Positions 28,184 through 39,242 of a stretch of 39,678 nucleotides of DNA are shown here, in pieces (the stretch's first letter is position 1; every line of letters begins with the position of its first letter). The position numbers were made by a program, and so were the translations under genes. The stretch comes from a virus: positions 1-39,678 of IMG/VR virus record IMGVR_UViG_3300020467_000014. One strand, 5' to 3'. Under the pieces are notes generated by a model. It saw nothing but the letters and a program-made list of their open reading frames with translations. It was not told where the DNA came from and did no database searches.

Positions 28184-28927
28184 ATGGCTTTTCACGGTAA
28201 TGCTGCCAATGCGAATGTGACGACGGATGTCTCGGCAGGGACATACGGTGATGGTAATAATATACCTACCATAACAATTGATGCAAATGGTAGATTAGAT
28301 GCGATCAATACATCATCAGTCACTTATTCTACGTTGAACGCAGGTGCAACTGTTGGTTCGGTTGGAAGTTATGCTTTCATGCAACAATCGAGTGGTAACA
28401 CTCAATATGCACCAGGTGATACGTTAGCAGGTTCTAGTCTTAGATACTCAGATGCAACAGGTCGTGTTCATAATGATACACCTTCAGGAAACTGGAGATG
28501 TATGGGTTATGACTCAGGTGCTGCACTGACAAACTCAGGTACAGTTGGTGGATCAGCAGCTGGATCAGGGTCACTACAAGGTGGTAATGTTCAAGGTGAT
28601 AGTTCCGCAACTATATCAGGTAATGTTCAAGGTGACTCTGCACTTGCATCAGGTAATATTACAGGTAACGTGAACGTAAACGTTGCTGGTAACATTACAG
28701 GTGGTAAAGGTGGATCTTTCGACGTTACACCAACAGTTGACACTGACGAACTCGCAGTTGCAGGTAACATTGCTACTGATGATCTTTCTATAACAGGTAA
28801 CACTGGAACAATTGCAACAGATGATTTATCAGTTGCTGGTAACGTTGCAGTCAACGTGAACCTTGGTTCTATTACAGTCAACACAACTGTAGCATACTCA
28901 TCAACCCTTTGGTTACGTTATTCTTAA
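28184..28927 (+). CDS. Gly/Ser/Asn-rich fibre-associated protein, candidate adhesin
   Basis: A 247-residue protein. It opens with a fibre motif (DVSAGTYGDGNNIPTITIDA, NGRLDAIN) also present in the 991-residue fibre. The middle has MGYDSGAALTNSGTVGGSAA and short Gly-rich repeats (GNVQGDSSATISGNVQGDSA, GNITGNVNVNVAGNITGG), then paired TDELAVAGNIATDDLSITGN units. It ends TVAYSSTLWLRYS, a terminal aromatic strand common in small phage fibre and tip proteins. It has the best promoter and ribosome binding site in the window, fitting a protein needed in quantity. Its place directly after the long fibre recalls gp38-type adhesins of T-even phages, which have glycine-rich loops, but no homology is claimed. 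Confidence 0.6.
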   Translation: MAFHGNAANANVTTDVSAGTYGDGNNIPTITIDANGRLDAINTSSVTYSTLNAGATVGSVGSYAFMQQSSGNTQYAPGDTLAGSSLRYSDATGRVHNDTPSGNWRCMGYDSGAALTNSGTVGGSAAGSGSLQGGNVQGDSSATISGNVQGDSALASGNITGNVNVNVAGNITGGKGGSFDVTPTVDTDELAVAGNIATDDLSITGNTGTIATDDLSVAGNVAVNVNLGSITVNTTVAYSSTLWLRYS

Positions 28928-28933
28928 AAAACA

Positions 28934-29350
28934 ATGGCAGACACAAGTTACGAAGTAGTAAGAGCAAGGAACCCAAAGTGGGCAAATCCTGAAAAAAACA
29001 TGGTTGACTTGGAGGTAGACTTCGCTCCATTAGATGAAGAGTGGTTACCATACACAGCATCTCCAACAGATACAACATGTGAGCATTCAAGATATTTGTA
29101 TACACAAGCAATAAATGGAGCGTACGGAGATATAGGAGATTACGTTCATCATACTTTATGGACACCATGGTTTGAAGATAAGACTGAAGTATCAAACGAG
29201 GGTTTAGTTCAGTTATTATTAGAGAAAGGAATATTGACAGACGCAGAGGTGGATACTATACTTGTAGAGACATCTGAATTCCAAGGATTCTCTAGACCTG
29301 CGACTGATACATTAAATCATAATGGTGGTGCATATTTCGGAGCAACATAA
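28934..29350 (+). CDS. Conserved-looking small protein after the fibre genes
   Basis: A 138-residue acidic protein. It starts SYEVVRARNPKWANPEKNMV then DLEVDFAPLDEEWLPYTASP, a pattern (ARNPxWxxxxxxxIxLEVxF, followed by PFTAxxxD) that I associate with short proteins coded next to tail fibre genes in several phage groups. Their role is not settled; fibre assembly or attachment is plausible. The rest is helical (GLVQLLLEKGILTDAEVDTI). It lies six bases after the adhesin candidate, and the next gene starts 29 bases before its end. There is no membrane segment. Confidence 0.6.
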   Translation: MADTSYEVVRARNPKWANPEKNMVDLEVDFAPLDEEWLPYTASPTDTTCEHSRYLYTQAINGAYGDIGDYVHHTLWTPWFEDKTEVSNEGLVQLLLEKGILTDAEVDTILVETSEFQGFSRPATDTLNHNGGAYFGAT

Positions 29351-30332
29351 CTACGCAGATAGGTCGGATAAGTGGCATCATACAATGGCGAGGTATTTGG
29401 GATTATCCCCAGACACCTCGTTTTTATTTGGCATTCTACCTGGTGTGTGTCGTGAAGCGATTGGTAGATATGATCACATGTATATACAACGTGATTGCTT
29501 CAACAGTAAATTCATATATGCATGGTCAAGACATCATGCAGAAAAAATAAATGCTTCTAAATTTTCACAGAATATAGCATATTATGGCACCGCACCATTC
29601 ATGTGGGAGTTGGGACGGGTTGCCAGCAGTAATGATTTCAACCCAGAGGGATCGTTATTCTTCTTACCAAGAGACGATCAAGTTACCATAAGAGAAGATG
29701 AGTTTGAGTCAGTGCAGCAGGTGATAGACTCGGCACCACGCCCTATAACATTCTTATTACCATGGCGTAATTGTGACATCTGGAAAAACTGGGATAAATT
29801 AAAACTTGCTGGTGATGCAACGTTCATACAAATGAATGACCCAAACATAAGACAAGAGACTTTATCGTATAATATCCTAAAACATGAGCATGTATATATT
29901 CCTTGGCCTGGCACTGATGTTTACTACGCTGGTTTCTTAGATAAAATCGTTCATGTATATGATAGGTTGGAACAATATCGTACTAAGACTCGTGATGAAA
30001 TGGATAGAGAGAAAAGTATGGTGATCCACTATTTGAAGTGGGGATATGATTGGTTGACTGATGAACAAAAAACATTCTTTGAGTGGACAAAAAATTGGCA
30101 TGATATTGACAAACCAGTAAGAAATTATCTAACCATACAAATGCTAGGACTTGATGTTTTAAAGTCACCAGAAGAATTGTTTGAAGATCTAATGTACTAT
30201 GGTTTCTTACAAGATAATCAAAGATTTGTTTATAATTCAGAGTATCAGAAATCTTATGAGTGGTTACAATTTAATCTTGAAAAAATTCATGGTCAGACAT
30301 CGCACGATCATCCACATATAGCACTGCTCTAG
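29322..30332 (+). CDS. Unknown protein, possible glycosyltransferase-like
   Basis: A 336-residue protein. The start is uncertain: ATG 29322 and two following GTG codons lie inside the previous gene, while an ATG at 29385 (MARYLGLSPDTSF) would avoid overlap; the sequence between (EQHNYADRSDKWHHT) looks coding, so the long form is kept. Features: LFGILPGVCREAIGRYDHMY near residue 35, a strand-rich middle RPITFLLPWRNCDIWKNWDK, and YIPWPGTDVYYAGFLDKIVH near residue 200. That last segment resembles the 'TxxFYAxxLGKKVxxYG' element of GT-B-type polysaccharide enzymes. Its place at the edge of the sugar island supports a glycan role, but I cannot identify it. Its last 62 bases overlap the HAD gene tail to tail. 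Confidence 0.5.
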   Translation: MVVHISEQHNYADRSDKWHHTMARYLGLSPDTSFLFGILPGVCREAIGRYDHMYIQRDCFNSKFIYAWSRHHAEKINASKFSQNIAYYGTAPFMWELGRVASSNDFNPEGSLFFLPRDDQVTIREDEFESVQQVIDSAPRPITFLLPWRNCDIWKNWDKLKLAGDATFIQMNDPNIRQETLSYNILKHEHVYIPWPGTDVYYAGFLDKIVHVYDRLEQYRTKTRDEMDREKSMVIHYLKWGYDWLTDEQKTFFEWTKNWHDIDKPVRNYLTIQMLGLDVLKSPEELFEDLMYYGFLQDNQRFVYNSEYQKSYEWLQFNLEKIHGQTSHDHPHIALL

Positions 30333-30654
30333 GTTTACCAAAATATAATTTATGATACTTGACACCCCACTTCGTGAGTTGTGCTTCAGTTTTACTTCGT
30401 GCAAAATTATCTGCTTCAGTTTGTGCATCTGGAATATTATCGTGTATAGCAGTACTATGAATAAATCCTCGTGCAGTCATAAGATATATGGTTGCACCTT
30501 TGTCATATAATTCATTTACTTTTTTTATTCTACTCACTCGTGGTACAGCACCGTTCCATGGATAAACATTCGGTGGTGTGTCGCATAGTGTACCATCAAG
30601 ATCAAAGCAATATATGTCATCCCTTTGATAAGTTATATCATTAAATTCAGTCAT
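30271..30654 (-). CDS. HAD-family phosphatase
   Basis: A 127-residue protein without a cap domain. Motif I is FDLDGTLCDT (nucleophile Asp18, acid/base Asp20), motif II MTARG, motif III a Lys in RSKTEAQLTKWGV and motif IV VLYVDDRA. All catalytic residues are present, so it should be an active Mg-dependent phosphatase. Short HAD proteins of this form are often coded in polysaccharide and LPS gene clusters, where they dephosphorylate sugar phosphates (KdsC and GmhB are examples of the role, not claimed homologues). It is the last gene of the leftward island operon, eight bases overlapped with the SIS-domain gene, and its 3' end overlaps the rightward 336-residue gene by 62 bases. Confidence 0.85.
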   Translation of the reverse strand: MTEFNDITYQRDDIYCFDLDGTLCDTPPNVYPWNGAVPRVSRIKKVNELYDKGATIYLMTARGFIHSTAIHDNIPDAQTEADNFARSKTEAQLTKWGVKYHKLYFGKPRAVLYVDDRAMSDHEFFQD

Positions 30655-31105
30655 TTATGTGTGGTAGTTCTGGTAAAACAACTCCTATATGTTCCAACAT
30701 AACATAGAGTTGCCAAAGTACATTTGTTTCAAATTCGTGATAGGTTCGTGCAGGTATGATTACAGTATCAAGAACTTCGTGTTGCATTGGTGCAAACAGT
30801 AGTGTGTCACACTGATGTCTAATATCCATCACTGCTGCAGAGGTGCTACTATCTTTCCTACATGTGAGTCCTATAATAAGATCAGCATGTTTTGCATATT
30901 GCATCCATGAAAGTTTCCAATCACCATCTCCACCTATTGCTGTAGTATGCACTGAATCTGGAGCAAAACAAAATTTACCAGTGTGTCGTGTAATATCAGA
31001 TGCCATGTGTTGAGCAATCGCAAGATTACCACCATTACCTATAAGGGCAACACTACCTGCCTTCATTAGTTTTGAAGGAAAGTGTTTAAGATCAACCTCT
31101 AACAT
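30647..31105 (-). CDS. SIS-domain protein, GmhA-like but catalytically altered
   Basis: A 152-residue protein from ATG at 31105 (MLEVDLKHFPSKLMKAGSVA); a longer frame to 31174 would overlap the previous gene by 76 bases. The 31105 start gives a 7-base overlap. The sequence follows sedoheptulose-7-phosphate isomerase: VALIGNGGNLAIAQHMASDI, then TTAIGGDGDW and ADLIIGLTCRKDSSTSAAVM. GmhA normally has about 190 residues. Aligned by eye, GNGGS has become GNGGN, STSGNS has become TCRKDSS, and the catalytic Glu (EELTGRF) and His (RIQEIH) positions are Asp and Asn. It is therefore a sugar-phosphate-binding SIS protein whose isomerase activity is doubtful. Its neighbours suggest a sugar substrate. Confidence 0.72.
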   Translation of the reverse strand: MLEVDLKHFPSKLMKAGSVALIGNGGNLAIAQHMASDITRHTGKFCFAPDSVHTTAIGGDGDWKLSWMQYAKHADLIIGLTCRKDSSTSAAVMDIRHQCDTLLFAPMQHEVLDTVIIPARTYHEFETNVLWQLYVMLEHIGVVLPELPHIND

Positions 31106-31812
31106 TTTTTTGATAATTCCTCCTCTATTTCGTATATATGATGTGGTCGGTCTACTGCCCTGACCTTTCCACATTTCAAATCAAAAGGTATCACGTTGTA
31201 TTTACCACAGAATCCAATAGTATCTAGTCCACGCCAATACTTGACAAATGTCATATCACAATTAGGAAAATCTACAATCACATCCTTCTTATACATGTAC
31301 AACCCTAATTGAGTAATAATATTATCACATATCACATCACATTTTCTTTGCATGTGTGTGACTACTCCATTATTCAGAACCATCTTGACCACATCTTCAT
31401 CATCTATCTCTTCTGGTTCTAGTTCTCTAGATGATTGCAGTACATCTATGTTATTATCAATCGCATATACTATCATATCATCAATCCATTTCGGGTCGGT
31501 GAGTGGTTCATCACCCTGCAGGTTGAAAACGTGATCCGCCAGCAGCGATCCAGCAACTTCAGCAACTCTATGAGTACATGTATAGTGTGATTCAGTAATT
31601 ATACTATCATAACCATTTTCATTTGCTAAATCTTGTATGATCTTATCTTCAGTTGCAATAATAATTCCATCAAGATACTTAGACTGCTTTGCTATGTCTG
31701 CTACTCGCAGCACCATTTCTCTACCCTTGATCTTGGCAAGAGGTTTGTTTGGGAAACGACTAGAACCAAGTCTAGCAGGTATGACACAGACTATTTTTTT
31801 ATTTTTATACAT
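31099..31812 (-). CDS. KdsB-like CMP-sugar synthetase (cytidylyltransferase)
   Basis: A 237-residue protein, near the 248 of KdsB. It has the nucleotide-binding start VCVIPARLGSSRFPNKPLAK, then IIIATEDKIIQDLANENGYD, SHYTCTHRVAEVAG (the SGTER region of KdsB, changed to CTHR) and NLQGDEPLTDPKWIDDMI with the metal-binding Asp. The C-terminus VRAVDRPHHIYEIEEE corresponds to the VDTPEDL element. KdsB couples CTP to the sugar acid KDO before its transfer to lipid A; related enzymes activate other 2-keto sugar acids. The changed sugar-side residues leave the substrate open. It overlaps both neighbours by seven or eight bases in the island operon. Confidence 0.82.
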   Translation of the reverse strand: MYKNKKIVCVIPARLGSSRFPNKPLAKIKGREMVLRVADIAKQSKYLDGIIIATEDKIIQDLANENGYDSIITESHYTCTHRVAEVAGSLLADHVFNLQGDEPLTDPKWIDDMIVYAIDNNIDVLQSSRELEPEEIDDEDVVKMVLNNGVVTHMQRKCDVICDNIITQLGLYMYKKDVIVDFPNCDMTFVKYWRGLDTIGFCGKYNVIPFDLKCGKVRAVDRPHHIYEIEEELSKKC

Positions 31813-32671
31813 GTTCTCCTAGCATAGATTTACCATATGCTGATTCATAAGCGTCATGAACAACTTGCATAGTTTTTTTAGCATCACTCATACTTTGTAT
31901 TATAGCATGATTTGATAGGTTTTCATAAAAAAATTTATGACCTGTACCATAATCATCTGGAATGGGGATAACCTGAAATCTATCTTCTCCAAAAACTGTA
32001 AGGTCTGTCGCATGATTATGTGGTCGGCATGTGGTAGTCATACTAACACTTACTATTATATCATCAACAGTTCTCATAGTACCACACGCCACGTCCTCGG
32101 TTTCAATATCAACGCCAGCAGCATGCATGTAAAAATTCACATCTTTTATTTCTCCTAGCAAATATCTTACTATATCTATTGCATGCACACCTTGATTAGT
32201 AAGAACACCTCCATCATGTTCCCATGTACCACGCCAATCTGCTTGGTCATAATATCTCTGTGGTCGGCACCAGTTGACTCTTACTTGAGCATGGTAAACC
32301 TTACCAACATTCAACTTAGGTAAAGTATATCTATGTTGGAATATAGGATATACCTTATTACTTGATCTTTGTATCATATCTTCTGCATCATCAAAGTCTT
32401 TCATTCTTAGAAACGTTGGTTTCTCTACGGTGATAATCTTTTTTTCTAAACGTGAACAAAGGGTAGTCAACGTATTATAATGATCACTTGAAGGAGTAGA
32501 TATAGCATAAATGTCAGCGTTAGCATCAATCGCCTGGTTCAGTGAATCAAAAGTGGATCGGGTTTTGTTTGTATCATAAAAACCAAGCACATCCAGATCT
32601 ATTTGATCTGCAACCCAACGACTTATCTTACCACCACCAATAAAAACTATACTATTCTCTGTCATAATCAA
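31805..32671 (-). CDS. Gfo/Idh/MocA-family NAD(P)-dependent dehydrogenase
   Basis: A 288-residue protein. The N-terminal Rossmann fold has IVFIGGGKISRWVADQIDLD with the dinucleotide loop and an acidic end (FYDTN). The family signature KKIITVEKPTF supplies the catalytic Lys, and DGGVLTNQGVHAIDIVRYLL is the substrate-side GGxxxxxGxHxxD motif. The C-terminal beta-sheet domain is present but a little shorter than the usual 330-350 residues. These enzymes oxidise hydroxyl groups of sugars and inositols, often to the ketone used by an aminotransferase. Both an aminotransferase and an amidinotransferase lie just upstream in the same operon, with 20 bases overlap. The alternative start at Met3 is equally possible. 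Confidence 0.85.
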   Translation of the reverse strand: MIMTENSIVFIGGGKISRWVADQIDLDVLGFYDTNKTRSTFDSLNQAIDANADIYAISTPSSDHYNTLTTLCSRLEKKIITVEKPTFLRMKDFDDAEDMIQRSSNKVYPIFQHRYTLPKLNVGKVYHAQVRVNWCRPQRYYDQADWRGTWEHDGGVLTNQGVHAIDIVRYLLGEIKDVNFYMHAAGVDIETEDVACGTMRTVDDIIVSVSMTTTCRPHNHATDLTVFGEDRFQVIPIPDDYGTGHKFFYENLSNHAIIQSMSDAKKTMQVVHDAYESAYGKSMLGEHV

Positions 32672-33551
32672 AGGTCATACAATGTAACCCACCATCCCAC
32701 AAGTATCTGTGTCTGAATGGTATGATAATTGGTTCCACTTTATGTTTCTTGAGAAAATCAAATACTTGTTTATTATATCTCGTGACCATCAAATGACTTT
32801 CATCAAGTTGTAGACAATTCACATCAAAGAATGTTTCGGGAGAGTATCCCACCCATTTGACATACTCTTCTGGTATATGTTTAGGAGACCATACTATCTC
32901 CTTACTCATCTGCATATCATTCAAATCTTGAGTATTGATGTCAAGATATAATATATCCCAATCAGGAAAAACATATTCTAAATTTCTGGCAGAGGGGGTT
33001 GCTATTATTACACCCTCTTTGACTGGACAGAATACACCATCAGTATGTCTTTCAATATCAAAGTCTCTATTAGATAATCTTTCATAAACGCACTCAACGT
33101 CAGGGTTGCCATACTTGAAGTATTCGTATCTCTTCCTCGTTATAGCAACAGCATCAAATATTATTTTATCAGTTCGCACAATACTTGGAGCAGATAGATT
33201 ATCCATAGTGATGATACGATCTCTACCACCACCTCTATGATAAAACCTATCGTGTAAATCCTTCCATCTATCAATATCCTCTTCGTATCGTGTGCCTATG
33301 TACAACTTATTATTAATTCGTTGTAAGTGATCTCTAGCATGTAGTAGTTGTGGTTTTCTTCTTACATCAACGTCATCAGCATACTCTGGTCGTCTTACAG
33401 TAACATCATAGGACTCAAGAACCTTACAAAATTCTTGTAAGTCCTCTTCAGTTTCGTGCAATATTGTTTTTATAAGGTTGTCGTTTACTTTATCTGGAGA
33501 GTATGATCTACCCACCCAACATTCTTTCAACCTACGATATTCTGCAAACAT
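32652..33551 (-). CDS. Amidinotransferase (AGAT/StrB1-type, PAD superfamily)
   Basis: A 299-residue protein. The N-terminus RRLKECWVGRSYSPDK corresponds to the 'LEEVIVGR' opening of glycine and inosamine-phosphate amidinotransferases. Catalytic residues are visible: His169 and Asp171 in ERHTDGVFCPV, and nucleophile Cys291 in WDGGLHCMTFD at the C-terminus. The family moves an amidino group from arginine onto an amine, producing a guanidino compound. The length is below the 350-380 of the known enzymes. It overlaps the aminotransferase by 25 bases, which could make the accepting amine, and the dehydrogenase by 20 bases. A deiminase or hydrolase role is an alternative within the same superfamily. 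Such an enzyme in a phage is unusual. Confidence 0.8.
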   Translation of the reverse strand: MFAEYRRLKECWVGRSYSPDKVNDNLIKTILHETEEDLQEFCKVLESYDVTVRRPEYADDVDVRRKPQLLHARDHLQRINNKLYIGTRYEEDIDRWKDLHDRFYHRGGGRDRIITMDNLSAPSIVRTDKIIFDAVAITRKRYEYFKYGNPDVECVYERLSNRDFDIERHTDGVFCPVKEGVIIATPSARNLEYVFPDWDILYLDINTQDLNDMQMSKEIVWSPKHIPEEYVKWVGYSPETFFDVNCLQLDESHLMVTRYNKQVFDFLKKHKVEPIIIPFRHRYLWDGGLHCMTFDYDRE

Positions 33552-34495
33552 GATTTATCAGGTAAAGTCATTCTTTTTGTATCCTTGAGACAAGGATGAT
33601 CTATCTTTCTAAGATATGCAATTCTATCTATAGTGTCAACCCTAGACTTATGAACGTGAACAAAATTGCATGATGTATTTGTGAATCCATCATAAGTTGC
33701 TAATTTATTTCGCAAAGATATTTGATTATCAATCAAGGATAAAAATTTATCCATATTATCCAATGCACCATCTAATATTGATGCTTGATAATCTCCTATG
33801 TCTTTCATAGGTTTGTTATCTTTGATTGATATATCATTACAAACAAGGTATCCAAGTCTCACACCAGCAAGACCAAGTGATTTACTGTAAGAATGACAGA
33901 CTGATATGGTATCATCCACATGTGGTATCATACTATCTTGTCTCATCCCATATAAAATATAAGTTTCGTCAAAAAGAATCTTCACCCCCTGAAATCTACA
34001 CAAGTCTGCAATGTACAATAAGTCCTCTTGTGTGTACTGGACACCTACAGGACTATCAGGGGATGCAAGTATGAATATGTCTCCTTTAGATAATTTTGAT
34101 ATACCAACCCGTATGGATCTGAGATCCACTTTCAAATTGTTATAATCAATGTATATGATGTCATTACAATAATAATGAGCATATACTTCGTTCATATTAT
34201 ATGTTGGTCTCATCAAGAGTGCCTTACAACCTCTGTGATGTTCAAAGAATTGTTTGATTGCACCATCAGCCCCCCATGTCAAAGATATAAAATTCTTTTC
34301 AACATTTAGATGCTCGCTCAACTTATTATAAATGGGGTCAAGAGACGGATATGTAGATAAAACATTAAAATCAATATTGTCATGTATTTTCTTTATAAGT
34401 TTCTTCGTCTCAATACAGTTACATTCATTTCTATCTAACCACAATTTACTTTTACTTCGTGGTGGGTCAGGAAATATTCTATTCAAATGTTTCAT
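33527..34495 (-). CDS. Class I/II (HisC-like) PLP aminotransferase
   Basis: A 322-residue protein of the fold type I PLP family, most like histidinol-phosphate aminotransferase. The PLP lysine is Lys205 in HSYSKSLGLAGVRLGYLV. Asp176 in KILFDETYILYG pairs with the pyridine nitrogen, and ILASPDSPVG stands where NPNNPTG is usual. TWGADGAIKQFFEH corresponds to the GxxDGI cofactor loop, and KRMTLPDKSCLQ probably holds the C-terminal carboxylate-binding Arg. Shorter than HisC (about 350) but apparently complete. It makes an amino product that the downstream amidinotransferase could modify. It shares four bases with the unknown gene upstream. Confidence 0.83.
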   Translation of the reverse strand: MKHLNRIFPDPPRSKSKLWLDRNECNCIETKKLIKKIHDNIDFNVLSTYPSLDPIYNKLSEHLNVEKNFISLTWGADGAIKQFFEHHRGCKALLMRPTYNMNEVYAHYYCNDIIYIDYNNLKVDLRSIRVGISKLSKGDIFILASPDSPVGVQYTQEDLLYIADLCRFQGVKILFDETYILYGMRQDSMIPHVDDTISVCHSYSKSLGLAGVRLGYLVCNDISIKDNKPMKDIGDYQASILDGALDNMDKFLSLIDNQISLRNKLATYDGFTNTSCNFVHVHKSRVDTIDRIAYLRKIDHPCLKDTKRMTLPDKSCLQNIVG

Positions 34496-35601
34496 AATTT
34501 ATTTGGTATATAATGTGAAGGAAGATTTCTTTCAGAAATATACTCTTTTACCATATCTGCTATTTGATTATATCTGTCTTGATAATTTTTCCAACATTCT
34601 GAGTGACTGGTGTAATTTCTATCTAATTCAAAATTTCCTCCAAATACTTCTTTGTAACTATCATTATCAAGATCAAAATATCTATAAGGTATATTTCTTT
34701 TTGTAAGAAATTCAGCAATTTTTATAGGTATGTAGAATTGATGATCGAGATATTGGAAAATAATTTTTTTATTTTTATTATATAAATCTTTTGTCAATAT
34801 CTCTTGTCCTTCGTCATATATGTGATGTGTAAGGTGGGAAAAAGAATCAATAAAACTCAATGCCCAAGAAAAAACATCAGATTTATAGGGAATAACATTA
34901 TTCGCTTTTCTAAGTTTATTCAACACATTTTCGGGTATGCTATATTTTTTGCTTTCTTCACTTCGTTGTAACAAAAAATGTTTTTCACAAAAACCACTTC
35001 CATTTTCTCGTCCATAAGGATTACGATTACTAGAATTACTGAGATTGAAATGACTGATAGTCATAGACATGAGTATATCAACGTCATCAAATATTTCATC
35101 AGCGTTATCATTCAACATTTCATATCCCAAGTCCTCAAATTCTTTATTTACCATAGATTGCATCATAGCGTGATTATATAAATCACTACCTTTATACTCA
35201 TCACTTGTAAATTTTTTCACATCTTTATCTGTAAATATTTCCATTTCGTCAAATGTTATAGCACGAAAATTTGATCTTCGTAGACTTAGTATAAAATCAT
35301 CATATCCTTTTGAGAGTGTATTGATATAAGAATCACTCGGAAAAAAATGTAATGTTTTTATGTGGTTGGTACGAGTTGTTTCAGATGATTTAAATTTATC
35401 TTTATCCCTACCATATAATTTTTTTTGTAAATCATGATATATCCAATAATTACCCTTTGGAGTAACACCTCTATTATGAACTATAGTCTTTATTTTCATA
35501 AAATTTTTATATTTACTACTCAATGAAGTCATACCATTATATCTTGCATGCAATTCCATGTGAAGTTTCCCAGAATTAGCATAACCCCAATACACGTTCA
35601 T
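34492..35601 (-). CDS. Unknown island protein B (paralogue of the gene at 35605)
   Basis: A 369-residue protein. It opens NVYWGYANSGKLHMELHA and has KTIVHNRGVTPKGNYW. Its C-terminus reads IIFQYLDHQFYIPIKIAEFL, KRNIPYRYFDLDNDSYKEVF and ELDRNYTSHSECWKNYQDRY. All these blocks recur in the upstream protein A. The GYxxSGKxH start recalls a P-loop or sulfotransferase phosphate-binding loop but lacks the Ser/Thr after GK, so nucleotide binding is not claimed. Base composition is far richer in A and T than in the tail genes, with many AT-ending codons, a sign of separate origin. It is probably a transferase-type enzyme of the same pathway; no family was recognised. Confidence 0.65.
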   Translation of the reverse strand: MNVYWGYANSGKLHMELHARYNGMTSLSSKYKNFMKIKTIVHNRGVTPKGNYWIYHDLQKKLYGRDKDKFKSSETTRTNHIKTLHFFPSDSYINTLSKGYDDFILSLRRSNFRAITFDEMEIFTDKDVKKFTSDEYKGSDLYNHAMMQSMVNKEFEDLGYEMLNDNADEIFDDVDILMSMTISHFNLSNSSNRNPYGRENGSGFCEKHFLLQRSEESKKYSIPENVLNKLRKANNVIPYKSDVFSWALSFIDSFSHLTHHIYDEGQEILTKDLYNKNKKIIFQYLDHQFYIPIKIAEFLTKRNIPYRYFDLDNDSYKEVFGGNFELDRNYTSHSECWKNYQDRYNQIADMVKEYISERNLPSHYIPNKL

Positions 35602-35604
35602 AGT

Positions 35605-36501
35605 TTACCTTTGTACATATTCTTTTGCAATATCTTGTATCATATCATATCTTTCGTTATCTTGCCACGAGTCTTTTCTATGAGAGTAATCTCTAGGCAA
35701 TTCTATCTCCCATCCAAAAGTATCTTTGTAACTATCGGTGTCCAAATCAAACATTTGATATGGTATATTGTATTTTTTTAGTAAATCAATTACATTATCT
35801 TGCTCCTTATTATATTCGTCTAAGTAATTCCATATTATATTCTTGTCAGTATTATATACTTCTAATAAATCATCAACACCTGTATATAAATCTAATTTAC
35901 TAATAATACAATCTAATATGTTGGATTTATATGGCACTATATTGATAGAGGATTTAAGTAATTCAACATTATCTTCAATTACATATTCTGGTGGTACAAA
36001 TGAAACTAAATCTACATCTTTGAATATCTCGCCATAGTCATGTGCTTCACGAGGTATATCTTCACAAATTTGTTTTATATATGATGATATAATATCATAA
36101 TATAAGTTAGTGTTTATATATTCTATTTGAGAGTATTTCTTTATATCGTCCTTAGAGTAATTCCTATTTTTCTTCAGTTGATAGTAATTTGAATGATAAT
36201 AATTTGATCTTGAGTTATTTGGATTTATACTGCTCGAAGTATGTTTATAAGGTATCTTTGTGTATATTGAATTTGCTTTTTTCTCACATTTTCTAAAACC
36301 ATCAATGTAATGATATATTATTCTTCTAACTGTTTCGTCTCTCCAATAAACTCCCTGATGATGAACAGTAGTATAGATTTTTTGTATGCTTTTTCTCCCT
36401 TCATGCCATATTAGTACAGTTTTGTCGTTATGTATCGCATAATTTTTTATGTGATCTTTTCCTGAATCACAATACCCCCAATACACAAACATAATTTTCA
36501 T
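35605..36501 (-). CDS. Unknown island protein A (paralogue of the gene at 34492)
   Basis: A 298-residue protein, first gene of the leftward island operon. Start is ATG 36501 (MKIMFVYWGYCDSGKDHIKN); Met4 would align better with its paralogue, which begins MNVYWGY. Shared blocks are KIYTTVHHQGVYWRDE, IVPYKSNILDCIISKLD, IIWNYLDEYNK, NIPYQMFDLDTDSYKDTF and ELPRDYSHRKDSWQDNERYD. The middle is Tyr/Asn/Ser-rich and poorly conserved. The gene is strikingly AT-rich. A three-base gap separates it from protein B. Tandem duplication followed by divergence is the simplest history. It may act on the compound made by the downstream enzymes, or be unrelated; the function is unknown. Confidence 0.65.
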   Translation of the reverse strand: MKIMFVYWGYCDSGKDHIKNYAIHNDKTVLIWHEGRKSIQKIYTTVHHQGVYWRDETVRRIIYHYIDGFRKCEKKANSIYTKIPYKHTSSSINPNNSRSNYYHSNYYQLKKNRNYSKDDIKKYSQIEYINTNLYYDIISSYIKQICEDIPREAHDYGEIFKDVDLVSFVPPEYVIEDNVELLKSSINIVPYKSNILDCIISKLDLYTGVDDLLEVYNTDKNIIWNYLDEYNKEQDNVIDLLKKYNIPYQMFDLDTDSYKDTFGWEIELPRDYSHRKDSWQDNERYDMIQDIAKEYVQR

Positions 36502-37034: not shown

Positions 37035-39242
37035 ATGCCAGTCAACATTGAAATCAAAGGCAATCTTGCCAAACTACTCGCAACAGAGAACCTTATCATT
37101 GAGCATAAGGCAGTTGACACAGCATCATTTGATATTGAGCGTAGAGTTCTAACACTACCTCAATGGGAGACAGATAGCAATGTTGTTTACGACATGCTTG
37201 TTGGTCATGAAGTTGGTCATGCACTACACACACCTCTAAGAGATTGGAGAAAAGAGGACAAGTATAAAAACTTGCCAATGGACTATGTAAATGTGGTAGA
37301 GGATGCTCGCATTGAGAAGTTGATGAAGCAAAGATTTGCAGGTCTCAATAGAGATTTCTATAAAGCATACGAGGAACTACATACTCAGAACTTCTTTGAT
37401 GTAGACGAGGATGAAATAGATGATCTCAAACTAATTGACAAGATCAATCTATATTTCAAGATCGGTGCATATCTTTGCATTGACTTCAATGATGAAGAGA
37501 ATCAAATCATCACAGAGATTTCACAGGCAGAGACATTTGACCAAGTGCTTGACCTATCTCTTAGATTATACAACCTATCTAAAGAACAAAAGGTAGAGAT
37601 AGACCTATTAGAATTACAGTCAGTCAAGATTGACCCTGATGGCGAACCTATGAATATCAAAGTTGCACCACAGGATGCACAGACTCAGGATGAGACAGAG
37701 GACGAGGACGAGGATGCACCAGAGGTAACAGGTAAGAATACTATACCAGTACCAACTGATGACGAGGTAGATGAAGATGATACACCTGAGTTATCAGAGA
37801 GAGCAGGGAATCACGCTAACATTGACCAGTCTGACACACAGAGAACATTTGATCGCAATGTCAGAGAAGAACTCAAATCAGATGACCTAAGAGAAACCAA
37901 CTATGTGACCATACCAGAGGTTGACATTGACTCAGTACTCATCAAGTTTGAGACAGTCAGGGATGCACTCAAGTCTCACTTCACATACAAAACAACTGAG
38001 TCTGACCCTTGCACTCATCCACATGAGATAGTTTCATACAATGCAAGAATAGACAGAGCAGTTGAAGAGTACAACAAGGTCAAACTATCATCAAGAAAAG
38101 AGGTCAACAACCTTGTCAAAGAGTTTGAAATGAAGAAATCAGCAGACTCATATTCTAGGTCAGCAACATCAAGAACTGGTATGTTAGACATGTCTAAACT
38201 ACATACCTACAAGTATAACGAGGACATATTCAAAAAGGTCACAGTTATACCAGAGGGTAAGAATCATGGTCTTGTATTCCTACTAGACTGGTCTGGTTCT
38301 ATGCACAATATACTAGAGGATACTATGAAACAGTTATTCAATCTAGTATGGTTCTGTCGTAAGGTTCAAATACCATTCGAGGTATATGCTTTCACAAATG
38401 ACTCATGGTCACTTGACCCTAGAACAAAGAGTCAAGACCCACATGCTTATACATGGCAACGTGATTTACCATCACACCATACACCAAAAGAGAATGAAAT
38501 TATTATCCCTGACACTTTTAGATTAGTAAACATACTATCAAGTCAGCAACGTGGTAAAGACCTTGATGAAATGATGAAGTTGCTATTCTTACAAGTGAGA
38601 GCATTTGGTTGTTACGGAGAATTACCTTATCTACATACATTCCAACTATCAGGCACACCACTCAATGAAGCAATTATTTGTATTGGTCAAGTGACTAAGA
38701 GAATAATCAAGTCAACTGGTATCCAAAAGTGTCATGTAGTTGTATTGACTGATGGAGACGGATTCCATTGTGAGTATGCTAGTAAGAGTTCATATGATGA
38801 TAAACTCAACAGTCGTACAATATATTCTGGTGGGTTCATGATAAGACAAGGTTCTAAATCATTCTCAGCAGGGAACGGACATACTGACCTTACAACCGCC
38901 TTAGTCAGGTCTGTCAAAGCAGAACTACCTAGCACATCATTCTTAGGTATTAGAATCATAGAGAGAGATTACAGACACTTCTACATGGGATATGGTAGAG
39001 ATTCCTACGGTATGTTTGATGACATGAAAGCACAGAACCGTAAGGAGGGTATGATTCACTTCAAGTCTGACTCATTCGATCAATGGTATGGTATCTCAAG
39101 TAACAAGTTACATGATGATGCTGAACTATCAGTAGATCAAGGTGCTGACAAGAGATCTATCTCTACCGCTTTCAAAAAGATGAACAGAGGTAAGAAAACT
39201 AACAGAGTTATGGTAAAACAATTCATAGACCAGATAGCATAG
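37035..39242 (+). CDS. VWA-domain protein with HExxH motif, CobT-like partner of CobS
   Basis: A 735-residue protein. Residues 50-100 hold a metalloprotease-type site: GHEVGHALH (His58, Glu59, His62) and, 25 residues on, VNVVEDARIEKL, where Glu89 could be the third ligand; the VEDARIE segment also resembles the conserved helix of CobT and NorD proteins. Residues about 215-262 are very acidic (ETEDEDEDAPEV, DDEVDEDDTPEL), like the linker of CobT. From residue about 410 there is a VWA domain with MIDAS motif LLDWSGSMHN (Asp418, Ser420, Ser422), a later Thr in TPLNEAI and VVVLTDGDGFH. VWA proteins of this class work with MoxR/CobS AAA+ ATPases, and the next gene is CobS-like. Protease activity is untested; cobalt chelation is one option. 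Confidence 0.8.
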   Translation: MPVNIEIKGNLAKLLATENLIIEHKAVDTASFDIERRVLTLPQWETDSNVVYDMLVGHEVGHALHTPLRDWRKEDKYKNLPMDYVNVVEDARIEKLMKQRFAGLNRDFYKAYEELHTQNFFDVDEDEIDDLKLIDKINLYFKIGAYLCIDFNDEENQIITEISQAETFDQVLDLSLRLYNLSKEQKVEIDLLELQSVKIDPDGEPMNIKVAPQDAQTQDETEDEDEDAPEVTGKNTIPVPTDDEVDEDDTPELSERAGNHANIDQSDTQRTFDRNVREELKSDDLRETNYVTIPEVDIDSVLIKFETVRDALKSHFTYKTTESDPCTHPHEIVSYNARIDRAVEEYNKVKLSSRKEVNNLVKEFEMKKSADSYSRSATSRTGMLDMSKLHTYKYNEDIFKKVTVIPEGKNHGLVFLLDWSGSMHNILEDTMKQLFNLVWFCRKVQIPFEVYAFTNDSWSLDPRTKSQDPHAYTWQRDLPSHHTPKENEIIIPDTFRLVNILSSQQRGKDLDEMMKLLFLQVRAFGCYGELPYLHTFQLSGTPLNEAIICIGQVTKRIIKSTGIQKCHVVVLTDGDGFHCEYASKSSYDDKLNSRTIYSGGFMIRQGSKSFSAGNGHTDLTTALVRSVKAELPSTSFLGIRIIERDYRHFYMGYGRDSYGMFDDMKAQNRKEGMIHFKSDSFDQWYGISSNKLHDDAELSVDQGADKRSISTAFKKMNRGKKTNRVMVKQFIDQIA

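Follow-up and report, generated by a model that had tools for sequence, protein, structure and literature searches.

The phage DNA analysed here, the 39,678 bases of the IMG/VR virus record IMGVR_UViG_3300020467_000014 (hereafter the window), carries on its minus strand a unit of eight genes running from 36501 to 30271, in which neighbouring genes overlap or abut one another and whose families are suggestive of the synthesis of a sugar activated with cytidine monophosphate (CMP). The unit opens with U298, a P-loop-like protein (35605..36501; open reading frame [ORF], family alignment and AlphaFold2 model), and U369, a second member of the same family (34492..35601; ORF and family alignment). 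These are followed by a HisC-like class I/II pyridoxal phosphate (PLP) aminotransferase of 322 aa (33527..34495; family profiles and PLP-lysine motif), a pentein or amidinotransferase-like protein of 299 aa (32652..33551) recognized by its profile relationship and by Cys291, His169-x-Asp171 and Arg-Asp74, and a WlbA-like Gfo/Idh/MocA dehydrogenase (31805..32671; family profile and solved relatives) for which the ATG at 32665 is the more probable start than 32671. A KdsB-like CMP-sugar synthetase (31099..31812; family profile and site conservation), a SIS-domain sugar-phosphate isomerase-like protein (30647..31105; weak profile) and a small EcbF/BcbF-like HAD phosphatase (30271..30654; phrog_1238) complete the unit. 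The SIS frame is open from 31174; the start at 31105 is preferred because it matches the starts of relatives and has an AGGAGG upstream. A first-pass annotation had described the last six genes as an overlapping set between 30271 and 34495, and all of their ORFs are indeed present on the minus strand; the boundary that it drew was too narrow, however, as the two further same-strand genes (36501-35605 and 35601-34492) belong to the unit, U369 overlapping the aminotransferase gene by 4 bases and being separated from U298 by a 3-base gap.

The KdsB-like, SIS and HAD genes form a core that recurs, in conserved order, in about 28 marine phage loci (23 viral contigs from a scan for KdsB, plus L003, L012, L014 and L015; L014 lacks a recognized HAD gene, and in L056 and L057 a SIS-HAD fusion is filed under the HAD label). 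It nearly always lies between tail-fibre genes and the gene P336 on one side and a phrog_459 gene on the other. Since about 24 related loci have this core without the aminotransferase, amidinotransferase and Gfo/Idh genes, the six genes do not make up one obligatory pathway. The KdsB-like protein matches CTP_transf_3 (E 6e-26) and conserves the CTP loop (R14, R19, K23) and both metal-binding Asp residues described for KdsB (PMC3149649); it scores under every curated NCBIfam cut-off (89.8 bits against 155.2 for TIGR00466; 137.2 against 255 for the best subfamily). The HAD protein belongs to phrog_1238 (E 3e-22), and the catalytic residues of the SIS protein gave no confident alignment to those of E. 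coli GmhA or KdsD. In L039, L040, L045-L051, L054 and L056-L058, a single protein of 281-305 aa combines the SIS and HAD domains, an arrangement that suggests that the two may catalyse consecutive steps.

The other five genes behave as a replaceable cassette (31813..36490, minus strand), as revealed by alignment with the related locus L037. On the kdsB side, the window matches L037 at 88-90% identity over the stretch that opens at 29031 and closes with the kdsB start codon at 31812, interrupted by one short gap near 30530-30656; on the other side, starting at 36491, identity is 85%. The intervening 4.7 kb hold U298, U369 and the aminotransferase, amidinotransferase and Gfo/Idh genes in the window versus a single U-family gene in L037, the boundary falling exactly at the kdsB start codon. 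A second locus, L015, retains the amidinotransferase-Gfo-KdsB-SIS-HAD order of the window at 84% DNA identity, one gene being truncated by the contig end, up to which its Gfo/Idh and amidinotransferase genes are likewise 84% identical to ours; because five genes are kept in this order, the six-gene arrangement is not due to chance. Given that the core elsewhere does without the three enzyme genes, the exchange seen in L037 and the sparseness of their relatives, we regard these genes as an exchangeable addition, part of a tailoring cassette that has hardly been seen outside this phage to date.

Within the cassette, U369 is 34% identical to U298, whose family is marked by the motif YWG..SGKxH...VPYKS and whose strong matches are confined to the module locus in the larger related genomes. 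The U298 model (predicted local distance difference test [pLDDT] score of 85.5) has adenylate kinases and sulfotransferases as its best fold matches, with Z at most 7.8. The aminotransferase matches the class I/II (E 6e-23) and HisC (E 2e-23) profiles and carries the PLP-lysine motif SYSKSLGLAGVRLGY as well as LFDETY; as it falls far under the HisC equivalog cut-off, it is not filed as a histidinol-phosphate transaminase. No close relative of it was found among viral contigs. The Gfo/Idh protein matches the C-terminal domain profile (E 3e-21), and its best solved relatives are 3q2i and 3q2k (E 1e-24), which we take to be the UDP-GlcNAcA 3-dehydrogenase WlbA and with which it has a RPQxYYDxAxWRGTWExDGG..NQxxH stretch in common. 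It thus appears closest to WlbA-type UDP-sugar 3-dehydrogenases, its own substrate being a matter of prediction, and the sole close viral relative found for it is that of L015 (88%).

The amidinotransferase-like protein has no match in Pfam or NCBIfam; the profile of its family, in turn, matches arginine:glycine amidinotransferase (AGAT), HsvA, SxtG and StrB1 in the PDB (2jdx, E 6e-17; StrB1 1bwd, E 2e-11). A deiminase, the alternative raised at the outset, was rejected as there is none among the PDB profile matches at E 0.01. The Cys and His-x-Asp residues noted in the first pass are in place, Cys291 corresponding to human AGAT Cys 407 and His169-x-Asp171 to human residues 303 and 305, and the Cys, HxD and Arg-Asp motifs are present in nearly every phage homologue. 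Among these, the protein belongs to a clade of short members (about 295-311 aa) with invariant motifs of its own, YNKQVFDF and FRHR..WDGG. All 12 loci of this clade with readable flanks have a CMP-sugar synthetase nearby, at 0.7-0.9 kb in 11 of them and at 5.3 kb in L012, as opposed to none of those that encode longer homologues. Because most of these eleven loci come from near relatives of the cultured cyanophage S-SCSM2R, the twelve are not independent and amount to four arrangements. When contigs from bacterial and archaeal genomes were scanned twice, with strict patterns from the amidinotransferase and KdsB alignments, no relative emerged.

The longer homologues (431-487 aa; L071 6564-9368, L074 7843-10506, L072 452-1786 and L073 7060-8391, in related phage genomes) occur as tandem or divergent pairs in two genomes, near psbA/psbD in G002, and also near apparent split carbamoyltransferase and radical SAM genes. 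In large phages (L024-L033), an amidinotransferase homologue sits beside a DegT aminotransferase, an epimerase, a carbamoyltransferase and several SPASM radical SAM proteins. Other phages combine two types, an AGAT-like one with the full triad and a copy of the WDGG clade (L017 3742-8942, also L020, L021 and L035), with a UDP-glucose dehydrogenase-family gene alongside in L017. S-SCSM2R itself has a second, AGAT-like "inosamine amidinotransferase" (L070 4571-5530) within a glycosyltransferase cluster, and Marine virus AG-345-D19 a degenerate copy in which neither the HxD Asp nor the Cys survives (L075 4857-6149).

Converging on the unit from the plus strand lies P336 (29322..30332), a protein with a predicted GT-B glycosyltransferase fold (pLDDT 84.7). 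Its top solved structural matches are a capsule polymerase with CMP (Z 9.6), TagF (Z 9.0) and TarL (Z 8.6), all CDP-donor polymerases; the first two, at a root-mean-square deviation of 4.5, rank about 1-2 Z above other GT-B folds. Foldseek gave nothing at E < 0.001 for either P336 or U298. P336 was found once, at the module locus, in the larger related genomes searched, and is co-directional with the module in L014 and L042. Tail-fibre-region genes flank the module on the same side (28184..29350, plus strand), 28934-29350 matching tail-fibre PHROGs and 28184-28927 being conserved beside the module in relatives. The conserved right-hand neighbour is a phrog_459 peptidase gene (37035..39242, plus strand). 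The window carries myovirus baseplate and tail-fibre genes, no tRNA gene in its 39,678 bases and no host marker. Since several module-bearing relatives carry psbA (W01, G002, G003), we consider these relatives to be cyanophages and a cyanobacterial host likely for this lineage. Megablast and protein searches of the structural genes revealed no close cultured phage; the source is a marine T4-like myovirus, most likely one of cyanobacteria.

Taken together, the conserved core and its setting between P336 and tail-fibre genes leave us fairly confident that the locus is a CMP-sugar glycan module, which is in line with the role in lipopolysaccharide (LPS) or virion decoration that was first suggested for it. 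In the scheme that we propose, the SIS protein and HAD phosphatase would prepare a sugar, for which an acidic one is the natural guess; the KdsB-like enzyme would join it to CMP; and P336 would move the sugar from CMP onto a virion protein or a host surface glycan. The exchangeable cassette, made up of U298, U369 and the three enzymes, would tailor the product. The WlbA-like Gfo/Idh protein would oxidize one hydroxyl of the sugar, and the HisC-like PLP enzyme would transaminate the resulting ketone. The amine so formed would then receive the amidino group of arginine through the amidinotransferase, which would yield a guanidino sugar acid either before or after CMP activation. A guanidino sugar is the best single reading of the product, one that we hold tentatively, while the explanation as a whole (core, guanidino tailoring cassette and transfer by P336) stands just short of an even chance.

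A number of observations weigh against this scheme. The position of the AGAT triad residue Asp254 (human numbering; PMC3684758) is occupied by Ser in the window protein, in two MAFFT alignments, and by Ser, Cys or Asn in its close relatives; the AGAT-like phage copies L070, L020 and L017 retain the Asp. The catalytic Cys is replaced by Arg in L014, and the W01 copy is degenerate, having lost both the Cys and the HxD Asp. Transferase chemistry is thus probable rather than assured, and the guanidino-sugar logic of the first-pass annotation is upheld by the WlbA-type Gfo/Idh protein and by the tie between the clade and CMP-sugar synthetases, but not by the triad. Neither an aminotransferase nor a Gfo/Idh gene accompanies the amidinotransferase in S-SCSM2R, L012 or L014, so that these three genes need not go together, and among the phage loci compared the full six-gene set occurs only in this window, its co-occurrence extending to five genes in L015 and to the core alone in the wider group. 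The KdsB-like protein lacks conserved residues of the canonical C-terminal half that binds 3-deoxy-D-manno-oct-2-ulosonic acid (Kdo), so that "Kdo-like" is a conjecture. Neither KdsA nor NeuB turned up in the related phage records that have the module, all of which may be fragments. The SIS assignment is weak (E 0.08, with weak GmhA/KdsD-type profile matches). Finally, sequence searches gave no match for P336, and its structural Z scores are no more than moderate.

The same observations lend some weight to a reading in which a CMP-sugar is made and transferred, but the pentein, its triad Asp gone, is not an arginine amidinotransferase and instead catalyses some other pentein reaction or has another partner as its substrate; the Gfo/Idh protein and the aminotransferase would then yield an amino sugar that bears no guanidino group. 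The altered Asp254 position and the clade-specific invariant motifs of a protein outside Pfam and NCBIfam would fit with it; set against this, all solved profile matches at E 0.01 are amidinotransferases and nearly all members keep the Cys, HxD and RD residues, which leaves it unlikely, if still to be reckoned with. That the cassette is an unrelated auxiliary insertion making a small free guanidino metabolite such as guanidinoacetate is improbable. Phage homologues do exist outside CMP-sugar contexts, and a survey reports a virus-enriched GAMT of creatine synthesis (PMC11360552), but members of the short clade have a CMP-sugar synthetase nearby wherever their flanks can be read, the adjacent Gfo/Idh protein resembles sugar dehydrogenases, the unit has no methyltransferase, and other phage copies have glycosyltransferase, DegT, UDP-glucose dehydrogenase and carbamoyltransferase genes as neighbours. 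We see little probability, too, that the cassette was acquired recently, is already decaying in part and supports no working pathway in the phage: the losses in L014 and W01 and the absence of the cassette from closely related phages would agree with this reading, but the window has six intact frames with catalytic motifs and five of them persist in L015 (84% DNA identity). A role in DNA base hypermodification is very improbable, since the amidinotransferases of some phages that act on 7-deazaguanine are different enzymes, no base-modification genes lie beside the unit, and the locus is a tail-fibre region with a GT-B protein.

Were the guanidino-sugar scheme to hold, the sugar on virion or host would alter charge and receptor recognition. 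The LPS of the marine Synechococcus examined so far contains neither Kdo nor heptose (PMC4515613), so that a phage CMP-sugar module would bring chemistry absent from the host surface. The broadest form of the proposal, a cyanophage lineage that itself encodes the synthesis of a CMP-activated guanidino sugar acid (fixed core, exchangeable oxidation-transamination-amidination cassette) and places this positively charged sugar on virions or on host surfaces otherwise without Kdo-type sugars, is possible but doubtful. Cassette exchange beside tail-fibre genes provides a testable model of phage surface-glycan diversification akin to that of bacterial O-antigens.

Several known systems resemble parts of this module. 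Streptidine synthesis uses the Gfo/Idh protein StrI, the aminotransferase StsC and the amidinotransferase StrB1 to make an unactivated aminocyclitol. The window likewise gathers these three kinds of reaction into a single set of genes and its amidinotransferase family matches the StrB1 structure (1bwd), but its genes precede a CMP-sugar synthetase and its amidinotransferase lacks the triad Asp. WlbA, the best solved relative of the Gfo/Idh protein, has a partner aminotransferase of the DegT type, in contrast to the HisC-like enzyme of the window, where CMP rather than UDP is expected. CMP-Kdo synthetase (KdsB) is like the window enzyme in its CTP loop and metal-binding Asp residues and unlike it in its Kdo-binding C-terminal half. 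Amidinotransferases as such are not new to phages: the Campylobacter phages CP220 and CPt10 were each annotated in 2010 with a putative one in an interchangeable gene block, which differs from the window in its five radical SAM proteins and, in the part of the description available to us, in the lack of any mention of a CMP-sugar synthetase (PMC2853527). S-SCSM2R (PQ898602) has two; among open-access papers we found none that describes an amidinotransferase within a sugar cluster of a cyanophage or that links phage amidinotransferases to CMP-sugar synthesis. The S-SCSM2R locus reads KdsB-KdsA-amidinotransferase, the last having neither a Gfo/Idh gene nor a HisC-like aminotransferase gene annotated next to it, and its KdsB is of a different subfamily, passing, with its KdsA, the curated Kdo-pathway cut-offs that the window enzyme does not reach; its amidinotransferase is nonetheless 66% identical to that of the window and, as in the window, lies close to a CMP-sugar synthetase, at a distance of no more than 0.8 kb.

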